A stretch of DNA of 64,000 bases from Treponema sp. (GTDB lineage Bacteria; Spirochaetota; Spirochaetia; Treponematales; Treponemataceae), in NCBI GenBank assembly GCA_017934745.1, contig JAGBIY010000002.1, positions 60,229 through 124,228 of the forward strand, written 5' to 3'. The notes beneath the pieces are model-generated. The model was given only the letters and a program-made list of their open reading frames with translations. It ran no database searches and was not told the origin of the DNA. The translations under genes were made by a program, and so were the position numbers. Below are positions 6,173-63,998 of this stretch, in pieces (position 1 is the stretch's first letter; each line of letters begins with the position of its first letter).

Positions 6173-6315
6173 AAATGAGCATTTTCTTTCAGTCTTGCGA
6201 CCTAGCTGGGTCGAGGTACCGTTGCACAACCCCTCCAGAAGGCTCCGTAAGGAACTGCATCCCAGCACAACGCCTTACTTCAACACCTTGACAGACACAC
6301 CTGTTGCCTGTTGTT
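6146..6315 (-). ncRNA. Candidate structured small RNA upstream of the PBECR4 gene
   Basis: The minus strand has a near-consensus promoter (6321-6349) and, about 170 nt later, a hairpin CCCGTC-ATGC-GACGGG followed by eight Ts (6146-6172). The body contains several possible helices, including GCTGGG with CCCAGC, GAGG with CCTC, GTTGTGCAAC, and a CGACC/GGTCG hairpin. No ORF with a ribosome binding site fills it. It does not fit SRP RNA, 6S RNA, tmRNA or any riboswitch consensus that I could recall. It could be a free small RNA or a 5' leader controlling the nuclease by read-through. Confidence 0.6.
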
Positions 6316-26194: not shown

Positions 26195-26213
26195 TAGGTC
26201 GAATGTCGAGTTT
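26195..26213 (+). repeat. 19-bp repeat (taggtcgaatgtcgag type)
   Basis: These 19 bases occur identically at 63861-63879 in the same orientation, both times in intergenic DNA close to other palindromes. They seem to be part of a dispersed intergenic repeat. Confidence 0.6.
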
Positions 26214-26273
26214 TCTCAGACCAATGTCAGAAACGAGGGAAAGCGAAAATTTCAAAAATGTCGCCATTCCGTC

Positions 26274-37990: not shown

Positions 37991-38025
37991 GTCTATCAAT
38001 GCGAAAATCAAATTTTTTACAGTTC

Positions 38026-38137
38026 AATGACCGAAACGAGCGGAAGCGGGGTTCCAGATTGAAAAACATTCAGCCACCGCGAAGCGGTACTGCCGTTTTT
38101 CAATCTGGGTTCCCGCTGTGAGCTTGTTTCGGTCATT
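38026..38137 (+). repeat. Long covarying palindromic element, copy 1
   Basis: The element forms one long hairpin: an outer stem (ACCGAAAC with GTTTCGGT), a constant stem (GCGGG with CCCGC), a variable stem (AGATTGAAAAAC with GTTTTTCAATCT), and a central CAGCCACCGC-GAA-GCGGTACTG hairpin. The copy at 63895-63998 is in the opposite orientation, has the same constant parts, and has different but again self-complementary variable stems. It fills the gap between proA and fabV. Confidence 0.8.
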
Positions 38138-38147
38138 ATTACAGATG

Positions 38148-39350
38148 CTACTCGATTACGTCCATTCTTGCGACGTCTTTCTCGTAGTCCACTCCGTCAA
38201 CGTCGAAACCGTTGATGTTCAAGAAGTCCTTCTTGATTCCGTCCAAGTCGATGAGGCTTGTGACGTTCGAAGGCGTAATCTCCGACATGAGCTTGTCGAT
38301 TTCGGTCTGGACTTTCGGGTCGAGTTCCCAGTCGTCGATTCTGATTCTTCCCTCGTCGTCTGTTGGAACAACTCCGTCGGCAGTGAAGAGACGCTCGCGG
38401 AAGAGACGCTCCATCTGCTCGATGCAGCCTTCGTGCGTTCCCTGGGCCTTCTGCACTTTGAAGAGGCAGCCGAGGTAGAGCGCGATTACAGGGATGACGG
38501 AAGATGAGCGGGTAACGAGTCCCTTGTTCACAGAGACGTAGCCGGCTCCGTTCACTTTCTCCGCGAGCTTCTTGTTGATTGAGCGGGCGTGCGCCTCCAA
38601 ATCCTTCTTTGCGGTTCCGATTGTTCCGTCCCTGTAGATTGCGTGCGAGTATTTCGGTCCGATGTATGAATAGGCGACAGTGCGGCAGCCTTCGTTCAAG
38701 ACTCCTTCCTCGGAAAGCTTGTCGATCCATCTCTCCCAGTCTTCGCCGCCCATGACCTTTATCGTGTTCAGAATGTCGCTTCCTTCCGCGACTGGGGCGG
38801 ACATCTCGGAGAGCGTCCCTGTCATCATGTCCAAGGCCTGACCCGTGAATTCCTTGCCGATTGCCTTGATTACCGAGCGGTACATGACTTTCGTGTCAGG
38901 GTCGGTGCGCACTGGAGAGGCGAGCGAGTAGACCACGAGGTCGAATTTCATTCCGTTCTCCTTTGCGATTTTGACGACTTCCGCGCGGCACTCGTCCGAG
39001 AACGCGTCCATGTTGAGTGTGAAAGACTTGAGTCCCGCTTCCTTGGCTGATTTGTCGAACTGCTTGTTGTTGTACCAGCCAGGAGTTCCGGCCTTCTTCT
39101 CGGTTCCTTCCTTCTCGAACGACACGCCGATTGTGTCGGCACCGTACTCGAAAGCGGCGGCGATTCTGGACGCCAAGCCGTATCCTGTGGAGCATCCGAG
39201 CACGAGGACGTTCTTTACGCTTTTCGTGACGTTCCTCTTCGATTTCTGCTCCTTCACGTATTCAATCTGCCTCAAAGTGTCCTTCGCGCATCCAATCGGG
39301 TGTGCGTTGATGCAGATGTTCGAGCGAACCATTGGTTTGATTACAGCCAT
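38148..39350 (-). CDS. fabV: Enoyl-[acyl-carrier-protein]/trans-2-enoyl-CoA reductase FabV
   Basis: The 400-aa size, the Rossmann motif VLVLGCSTGYGLASRIAAAF and the active-site pair Tyr-x8-Lys in IYRDGTIGTAKKDLE are the hallmarks of the FabV/Ter family, which replaces FabI in several bacteria. Treponema denticola Ter is the best-known member. It reduces trans-2-enoyl thioesters with NADH in fatty-acid synthesis or butyrate-type metabolism. AGGAG precedes the ATG. The gene is monocistronic and its end lies beside the palindromic element at 38026. Confidence 0.94.
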   Translation of the reverse strand: MAVIKPMVRSNICINAHPIGCAKDTLRQIEYVKEQKSKRNVTKSVKNVLVLGCSTGYGLASRIAAAFEYGADTIGVSFEKEGTEKKAGTPGWYNNKQFDKSAKEAGLKSFTLNMDAFSDECRAEVVKIAKENGMKFDLVVYSLASPVRTDPDTKVMYRSVIKAIGKEFTGQALDMMTGTLSEMSAPVAEGSDILNTIKVMGGEDWERWIDKLSEEGVLNEGCRTVAYSYIGPKYSHAIYRDGTIGTAKKDLEAHARSINKKLAEKVNGAGYVSVNKGLVTRSSSVIPVIALYLGCLFKVQKAQGTHEGCIEQMERLFRERLFTADGVVPTDDEGRIRIDDWELDPKVQTEIDKLMSEITPSNVTSLIDLDGIKKDFLNINGFDVDGVDYEKDVARMDVIE

Positions 39351-42484: not shown

Positions 42485-43462
42485 ATGGATATCACAAAGT
42501 TCTCCACAGAAGAAGAATACCTTTCTCAGATGCATGCAGGTGCGCTTCTCAATCCAAGAATCGACAGCACGTTCAAGGCATTGTTCACGCAGCCGACGCA
42601 AGACTCAAGAGAGGCACTGCACGCTTTTCTTGAGGCTGCCACCGAACGGAAAATAAAATCATTTGAACTGACGGCAACTGACGCGCCTGTAGAATTCGGT
42701 GGACAGAGAAATGTAAATTACGACATTGCATGTATTTTTGACGACGGACTTTCTGCCGAAATCGAAATGCAAGCGTTCAATCAAAAATACGACTACGGAA
42801 AAAGGGCCGAATATCAAGTTGCGCGACTTGAAACAACGTATCTCAAGAAAGGCGAAACATGGGAAAAAGCACCTACTGTTTATCAAATAAGCATACTCGA
42901 CTTCAACTATGCACCGAAAAGCAGTTCAGAAAAGAACGATGCAAACATCAAAAAAACGGAATCGGAATGTTCGCCCGTCAGTCGCTATTCAATGCGGACA
43001 AAAGATGGAAAAGAACTTTCAAATTCCCTTAACATAGTTTTTGTTGAACTTCCGAAAGTCCAACAACTGGAACAATCGCTCGAAACAAATACGTCTTTGG
43101 AAAATTGGGCAATTTTTCTAAAAGAGGCTGACGATCCCGAAAAAACTTCGGTTATTCAGAAACTCACGCAAAAGGAGGCTGGGCTTATGCAGGCGAAAAA
43201 TTCACTTTCATCTATCAGCGTAAATCAGGATCTCTGGATAGCGCAGTACCATCAAGAACTGAAAGAACGCGACTACATTTCAGGTCTGGCTGCCGCAAAA
43301 ATTGAAGGAATCGGAATCGGGCGTGCGGAGGGAATCCTTGATACAAAAATTGAAACTGCACGCAATTATCTGAAATTAGGACTTACGGCAGAACAAGTTG
43401 CAGTAGGTTCTGGATTGCCACTTGAAGAAGTCAGAAAAATAGAAGCAGCAATAATTAGATAG
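42485..43462 (+). CDS. Rpn-family PD-(D/E)XK nuclease (transposase-like)
   Basis: The 325-aa protein has the Rpn/PDDEXK transposase-family layout: MDITKFSTEEEYLSQMHAGA, the core GALLNPRIDSTFKALFTQP, and the nuclease centre EFGGQRNVNYDIACIFDDGL followed by SAEIEMQAF, which supplies Asp and Glu-x-Gln catalytic residues. The C-terminal helical segment with AAKIEGIGIGRAEGIL is the variable recombination-promoting tail. Such proteins cut DNA and promote recA-independent recombination. A -10 box TATACT ends 7 nt before the ATG without a Shine-Dalgarno. A decayed paralogue lies at 4345. Confidence 0.82.
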   Translation: MDITKFSTEEEYLSQMHAGALLNPRIDSTFKALFTQPTQDSREALHAFLEAATERKIKSFELTATDAPVEFGGQRNVNYDIACIFDDGLSAEIEMQAFNQKYDYGKRAEYQVARLETTYLKKGETWEKAPTVYQISILDFNYAPKSSSEKNDANIKKTESECSPVSRYSMRTKDGKELSNSLNIVFVELPKVQQLEQSLETNTSLENWAIFLKEADDPEKTSVIQKLTQKEAGLMQAKNSLSSISVNQDLWIAQYHQELKERDYISGLAAAKIEGIGIGRAEGILDTKIETARNYLKLGLTAEQVAVGSGLPLEEVRKIEAAIIR

Positions 43463-63804: not shown

Positions 63805-63860
63805 CTTCGTTTTCCCGTTCTCAATTCTCAATTCTCAACTTTCAATTATCCATTATCAAT

Positions 63861-63879
63861 TAGGTCGAATGTCGAGTTT
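63861..63879 (+). repeat. 19-bp repeat (taggtcgaatgtcgag type), second copy
   Basis: This copy is identical to 26195-26213. It adjoins a hairpin GTTTCTGCA/TGCAGAAAC whose right arm is shared with the palindromic element that follows. Confidence 0.6.
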
Positions 63880-63894
63880 CTGCATATCGTAGTT

Positions 63895-63998
63895 GCAGAA
63901 ACAAGCTCCCAGCGGGAACCCGTCCATCAAAACGGCAGTACCGCTTCGCGGTGGCTGAGTGTTTTGATGGACGGAACCCCGCTTCCGCTCGTTTCTGC
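63895..63998 (-). repeat. Long covarying palindromic element, copy 2
   Basis: This is the reverse-oriented copy of the 38026-38137 element. The constant blocks match, while the variable stem is GTCCATCAAAAC with GTTTTGATGGAC instead of AGATTGAAAAAC with GTTTTTCAATCT, and the outer pair is GCAGAAAC with GTTTCTGC. All remain self-complementary. It abuts the right edge of the window. Confidence 0.8.

Follow-up and report, generated by a model that had tools for sequence, protein, structure and literature searches.

We report a repeat of Treponema which is, on a modest preponderance of the evidence, a non-autonomous mobile MITE-like DNA element that carries a conserved fold of a single strand as its cargo. 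The core of the element is structured, probably as RNA, single-stranded DNA being the main alternative. The repeat was found in a stretch of 64,000 nucleotides of a Treponema sp. contig (the window), for which an initial annotation had pointed out two palindromic copies, at 38026-38137 and 63895-63998. Their positions are correct: the whole core aligns between the two, and the constant blocks that had been named are present. The arms were said to differ between copies yet to be complementary within each of them, and this is what we observed, the inner arms being paired at 14 of 14 positions in both copies (CCAGATTGAAAAAC/GTTTTTCAATCTGG; CCGTCCATCAAAAC/GTTTTGATGGACGG) with sequences that differ from one copy to the other. 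The outer arms covary as well (GACCGAAAC/GTTTCGGTC versus GCAGAAAC/GTTTCTGC). When the folding energies are compared to those of dinucleotide shuffles, the two copies have z values of -11.1 and -9.5, none of the 200 shuffles being as good in either case. The features of the window are the following:

38026-38137, + strand: folded core (nested hairpin) of copy 1; the + strand is the constrained strand (match to covariance model R1, see below, at G000:C3:98254-98363, E 8.6e-33)
38028-38041, + strand: copy 1, outer stem, 5' side (partner 38122-38135)
38042-38044, + strand: copy 1, internal loop, 5' side, GNA (GGA)
38045-38051, + strand: copy 1, middle stem, 5' side (partner 38111-38117)
38054-38067, + strand: copy 1, variable inner arm, 5' side (partner 38095-38108)
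38068-38094, + strand: copy 1, apex module, with a C(GAA)G hairpin
38095-38108, + strand: copy 1, variable inner arm, 3' side
38118-38121, + strand: copy 1, internal loop, 3' side, GNRA (GTGA)
38000-38015, + strand: copy 1, left terminal inverted repeat, decayed (12/16 match, row L001)
38148-38163, - strand: copy 1, expected place of the right terminal repeat (9/16 match, near chance)
63895-63998, - strand: folded core of copy 2 (R1 match at G000:C3:124121-124228)
63961-63974, - strand: copy 2, variable inner arm, 5' side (partner 63920-63933)
63920-63933, - strand: copy 2, variable inner arm, 3' side
63863-63879, + strand: copy 2, terminal inverted repeat GGTCGAATGTCGAGTTT, intact
26197-26246, + strand: third copy, truncated (terminal repeat and start of the left half)

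The window stops inside copy 2 because contig C3 ends there, the end of the window being the end of C3. The expected right terminal repeat of copy 1 overlaps the stop codon of a trans-2-enoyl-CoA reductase gene (window 38148-39350). An element of the same architecture in another genome (L073, in G009) also lies directly behind a trans-2-enoyl-CoA reductase gene; this sharing of a flanking gene between species may be due to chance. Neither window copy reached the gathering score of any Rfam family, the only matches being below threshold and near copy 1.

The element is larger than first described. Alignment of the flanks gives about 166 bp from end to end, including the terminal inverted repeats GGKCGAAWGTCGAGTTT. 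In the genome of the window (G000; 3.58 Mb in 73 contigs, 96% complete), the element has 42 blast matches, many of them at contig ends, and the terminal repeat has 197 matches at no more than two mismatches, the reversed control having none. Hence, we estimated that there are about 100 copies of the element in G000; at least 117 clusters were counted among the matches listed. An exact 5-bp direct repeat surrounds 26 of the 56 distinct elements with both flanks (taken from 66 rows, some of which are one element in both orientations), when 1.7 are expected from shuffled flanks. Other lengths of direct repeat are at or near background (2 bp at background; 6, 8 and 9 bp once or twice each). The target duplication is mostly TA-rich: T-A, then A/T. 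From the terminal repeats and the target duplications we concluded that the copies are transposed elements, so that the "mobile palindrome" which the initial annotation had listed among its possibilities is confirmed, with dispersed copies, terminal inverted repeats and a 5-bp target duplication. No called gene spans an element in any of the 66 rows, with a crude gene caller and some open reading frames reaching the edge of the element. The repeat has the attributes of a MITE, namely terminal inverted repeats, many copies, no open reading frame and a target site duplication, and it comes in classes of 166, 186 and 203 bp. No box pairs more than 263 bases apart were seen in the loci examined, and hence no autonomous element with an open reading frame between the boxes.

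The 186-bp class has extra hairpin modules in its apex. In the 203-bp class, to which 7 of the 56 distinct G000 elements belong by their length (6 sequences were inspected), a different hairpin stands in place of the 3' inner arm. In the two members whose fold was computed, the 5' inner arm lacks a partner, and the outer stem still pairs in L056 (the folded slice of the other, L052, excluded the outer stem). It had been stated that copies lacking complementary arms would refute a maintained fold; the 203-bp class, which recurs although its inner arms are unpaired, goes part of the way towards this, and it counts against our main reading. Several other variants can be mentioned. Locus L198 consists of two tandem elements, the second of which lies between direct repeats of 9 bp (TAATAGGTA), above the usual 5 bp. 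In G005, L074, L083, L089 and L092 have like ends (GGTCGAAAGTCGAGTTT) and an interior made of hairpins of the ATTGCCGGATCAAGTCCGGCAATGAC type. L225, L226, L231, L232 and L235 are versions of 156-164 nt with a large multi-hairpin apex, the predicted fold of which is suggestive of a complex RNA.

The core is a nested hairpin of about 110 nt in which one meets, from the outside in, the outer stem, an internal loop with GNA opposite GNRA, the middle stem, the boxes (GGTT/GTTC, T being opposite T in most copies), the variable arm and the apex module. Type-A copies have a further internal loop, AYT opposite CC, between the variable arm and the apex module. We aligned 63 of the 86 unique cores, those of equal arm length (alignment A2); L008, which is one base short, 10 copies with 13-nt arms according to the fit and 12 copies failing the box criteria were excluded. 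In A2, 98.1% of the cells pair and 26 of the 42 pairs have changes on both sides, none of 500 shuffles being as good; pairing falls to 42 and 45% when the partner is slid by one column. The initial annotation had proposed to collect the genome copies with a covariance model. In a set of 63 distinct divergent copies, whose alignment was fitted to covariance model R1, the arms keep pairing (91.2%) while both sides have changed in 41 of the 42 pairs, the apex helix being the weakest (76.9% paired). These copies have other apex modules, yet nearly all of them have the same GNA/GNRA loop. As cores had to have TT in the two boxes to enter A2, 3 added copies being exempt, and as the comparison set was chosen through the exact apex pattern, the conservation of the apex and of TT in A2 is partly a product of selection by us. 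TT is opposite TT in 69 of the 72 type-A cores without the long insertion (which 14 of the 86 unique cores carry) and in about 39 of 64 divergent copies; the box is a weaker argument because only the latter fraction of divergent copies keeps it. One can notice in A2 that a same arm position, columns 32 and 80, wobbles in many different arms (UG in 10 and GU in 5 of the 63).

Paired substitutions had been taken as strong evidence that the fold is what is maintained. The fold does appear to be maintained as a single strand, but paired substitutions are insufficient proof of selection, because template switching and conversion between copies also keep arms complementary. The evidence for selection comes not from the covariation of the arms by itself but from two other observations. 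The first one is the internal loop. The middle residues of GNA and GNRA were G,G in 74, T,A in 39, G,T in 5, T,G in 3, C,A in 3, T,T in 2, A,G in 1 and G,A in none of 127 rows, which include related copies and are hence not independent. Presumably, these residues are akin to a non-Watson-Crick pair with sheared G·A pairs on either side. Both the G,G and the T,A states are present within each of the genomes G020, G053, G066, G047 and JAFXSM. In JAFXSM a same arm CCGACCAC occurs with either state, as do the apex types CACTTTGTG, CACTTTGCGC and AAAACTCGCTT of G020/G053/G066. As this arm and these apex types lie between the two halves of the loop, the halves stay matched across exchanged sequence. 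The states are therefore not simply two linked lineages, though two old lineages could be part of the explanation.

The second observation is a strand bias of the wobbles. Up to 38 nt from the apex we counted 48 G·T contexts against 22 A·C contexts (p 0.0025), some contexts being in both zones, related copies being included, so that contexts are not independent, and 13 "ins" elements of 155 being omitted from the count. By zone the figures are 24 against 8 (p 0.007) and 24 against 14 (p 0.14, not significant alone). A2 alone gives 19 G·T against 5 A·C (p 0.007), 8 of these 19 G·T being located at two arm pairs. Taken together, the covariation of the loop and the strand bias of the core suggest selection on one folded strand.

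We have to weigh this against a self-correcting palindrome, that is a MITE whose boxes are bound by proteins as double-stranded DNA, template switching in replication and conversion between copies being all that keeps its arms complementary, without selection of a fold. The outermost arms, which lie outside the core, behave as it predicts. In 41 copies of other genomes they drift and tend to stay inverted, with a within-copy score of 23.6 against a cross-copy score of 15.3; 20 of the 41 copies are above the 95th percentile of the cross-copy score, and the mismatches are unbiased by strand (135 G·T against 115 A·C contexts, p 0.23). L187 carries the exact complement of its 5' box in place of the 3' GGTTCCC, and L068 has an apparent copy of the 5' arm where its apex should be: in both, one arm seems to have served as template for the other. 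Forms shortened to about 90 bp, which lack the hairpin (L172, L180, L194), look like palindrome deletions. In PMC8794818, such template switching is proposed as a mechanism of compensatory multi-base change in stems. However, a copied arm would give complementary partners and not switches between G,G and T,A, so that the loop goes beyond copying. Such a palindrome also predicts as many G·T as A·C in the core, where the counts given above differ, and it would tend to erase asymmetric boxes, which type-A cores have kept almost without exception. We regard it as unlikely that copying is the whole explanation, and we infer that two processes would together keep the arms complementary: selection of the fold, and copying through template switching or through conversion among copies, the latter process letting arms drift or be swapped in place.

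Changes in place can be followed at sites common to two genomes, in assemblies which are MAGs or drafts and in which chimeras are possible. In the sister genomes G020 and G053, L257 and L280 occupy a common site with flanks about 90% identical, yet their core arms and apex are different; at a second site common to these genomes (L255/L275) the core differs by one base. The alignment of L069 and L141 spans 3,023 bases, the element among them, at 88.7% identity; the direct repeats at the ends are the same, the 5' arm having changed as a block. The pair L220/L262 has different cores, but the blast match covers one flank only and the pair was not counted. L016/L154 was dropped as a core swap, the left flank differing by about 500 bp.

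The swap at the fixed site of L257/L280 is also what could be expected if the core, as a single-stranded DNA fold recognised by a protein during replication or transfer, were the real mobile unit and its terminal repeats were borrowed. Some cores of G009, inspected by eye, lie inside different outer inverted repeats (GGTCGAATGTCGATTTT, other arms, and an outer TGTGGAAGGCAAGTG), and the loops of the apex would, we assume, suit single-stranded DNA just as well. The absence of a significant bias relative to the direction of the flanking genes fits this reading too. Over three groups, neighbours in tandem on the same strand number 35 against 27, that is 20 against 11, 9 against 13 and 6 against 3 for 54, 43 and 25 elements, none of which is significant with our crude gene caller. 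A function of the core in read-through RNA predicts a bias, so that its absence counts against such a function, and a role at the 3' ends of mRNAs was rejected as there is no significant orientation of the element relative to neighbouring genes. Against a mobile single-stranded core, no match to a Y1 (HUH) transposase was found in G000, and the 5-bp target duplication together with the terminal repeats indicates ordinary cut-and-paste in this genome; we find it rather improbable. As an observation by eye, L219, L251 and L247 of G009 have the second outer inverted repeat TGTGGAAGGCAAGTG around their cores, and their hairpins look nested three deep.

Returning to a mobile element that carries a selected fold, the state of decayed copies is informative. 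We scored 67 copies with enough flank: of the 15 whose ends are unrecognisable (at least 12 mismatches out of 32), which had been found through the exact apex pattern, 14 have intact scored boxes and no more than one unpaired arm pair, the exception being L139. An ordinary, decayed and functionless MITE family, which would owe its hairpin to a few master copies that were active recently, would account for the many near-identical copies of G000 (at least 15 places share the R1 score of 123.2) and for the patchy presence in the genus, but it is very improbable, since copies that have lost their ends keep intact cores and the structure is kept across species despite strongly diverged arms.

The exact apex pattern was found at 66 loci or more, all of them, among the matches listed, in records of Treponema or Spirochaetaceae. 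Of the 59 genomes sampled within the genus, 28 have a core detected by covariance model R1, G000 included. Across the order it is detected in 10 of 116 genomes, 9 in the genus and a marginal one (E 5e-4) outside. At most 65 candidates per genome were scored in the genus set and 33 in the order set, and the count for G000 is thus a lower bound. The hosts are Treponema of the rumen type. Copy 1 has no match in phages or plasmids and the apex pattern has none in viral contigs; an origin on phages or plasmids was rejected on these searches.

As for mobilisation, our searches give no support to the REP-associated transposase mentioned in the initial annotation: there is no match to Y1_Tnp in G000, and in the sample of 59 genomes this family is present in 4 of the 28 with the core and in 8 of the 31 without it. 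We therefore rejected mobilisation of the REP/RAYT kind. A parent of the Tn3 type, suggested by the AT-rich 5-bp target duplication, has 0 matches in G000 as well, and DDE_Tnp_1 is represented there by one insertion sequence whose ends are unlike those of the element. Hence, the searches of G000 for Y1_Tnp, Tn3 and DDE_Tnp_1 yielded no transposase with matching ends. The element would be mobilised in trans by a transposase of the DDE kind. An unpaired end of the element is found at C18:88290, with open reading frames nearby. In the window itself, a PD-(D/E)XK family transposase (PF12784) is encoded at 42485-43462 (+).

The core would then act as RNA when it is transcribed by read-through. A promoter or terminator of its own was rejected: a scan of two copies gave one weak promoter-like site per copy, on the strand opposite to the fold, and a terminator-like site lying outside the element. 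An RNA-binding protein or an RNase may recognise a non-Watson-Crick motif formed by the GNA/GNRA loop of the folded strand, and this RNA role and recognition of the loop may matter for the persistence of the repeat. A broader picture, which is doubtful, is that of folded single-strand cassettes housed in terminal-repeat shells of different origin, with cores swapped in place, stems drifting almost limitlessly, a shape held by arm copying and by selection of the loop motif, and a candidate recognition partner of their own.

Attachment sites attC of integrons have RYYYAAC/GTTRRRY boxes and belong to cassette arrays with an integrase. The repeat is probably not an attC site, dispersed copies with a 5-bp target duplication arguing against it. 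In the literature searched, including searches with the apex 16-mer and for titles on Treponema MITEs or palindromes, we found no report of this repeat family. By analogy, it would join the MITE-like structured repeats, the closest kinds being BOX, bcr, Correia and ERIC.

BOX of Streptococcus pneumoniae, as presented in PMC3049150, is likewise modular, in high copy number, folded as RNA, provided with terminal repeats and regarded as parasitic and MITE-like, with variable inner modules. The host is different and the likeness is one of architecture; in the Treponema repeat, by contrast, the stems can take almost any sequence whereas a small loop motif persists, the inner modules are placed at the tip of a single nested hairpin, and arms or cores are exchanged in place. 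The families bcr1-bcr18 of the Bacillus cereus group are, according to PMC3446304, intergenic, some being MITE-like and some having a conserved secondary structure, and 40-51% of the intergenic copies of all 18 are present in transcripts; they belong to another phylum and are likened by description. Correia and ERIC, also likened by description, are of MITE type with folded transcripts, for which effects of RNase III or RNase E are reported; arm covariation of the Treponema kind is not described in the passages of PMC10969869 and PMC3049150 that were consulted. REP sequences with RAYT are high-copy palindromes too, and G-T pairing in their stems is read as a sign of transcription in PMC3733652, but they are 20-40 bp long, GTAG-tagged and associated with a tyrosine transposase, Y1_Tnp having no match in G000. 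Finally, the RNA hairpins attributed to template switching, from PMC8794818 as above, share a mechanism for compensatory multi-base stem change; they illustrate a mutation mechanism and not an element family, and the covariation of the loop is left unexplained by that mechanism.

The repeat offers a test case for when the covariation of stems signals selection on an RNA and when it signals replication copying one arm from the other. A same element gives differing answers, with outer arms devoid of strand bias on the one hand and, on the other, a core with both strand bias and loop covariation. It is also a widespread structured repeat of one genus, without a match in Rfam, and the binding partner of its loop motif could be sought. 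In the rest of the window, one can notice a simple stretch of the TTCTCAATTCTCAATTCTCAAC type beside copy 2, at 63815-63862, and a drum RNA (RF02958, 90 bits) at 6174-6288 (-), which is unrelated to the palindromic repeat.
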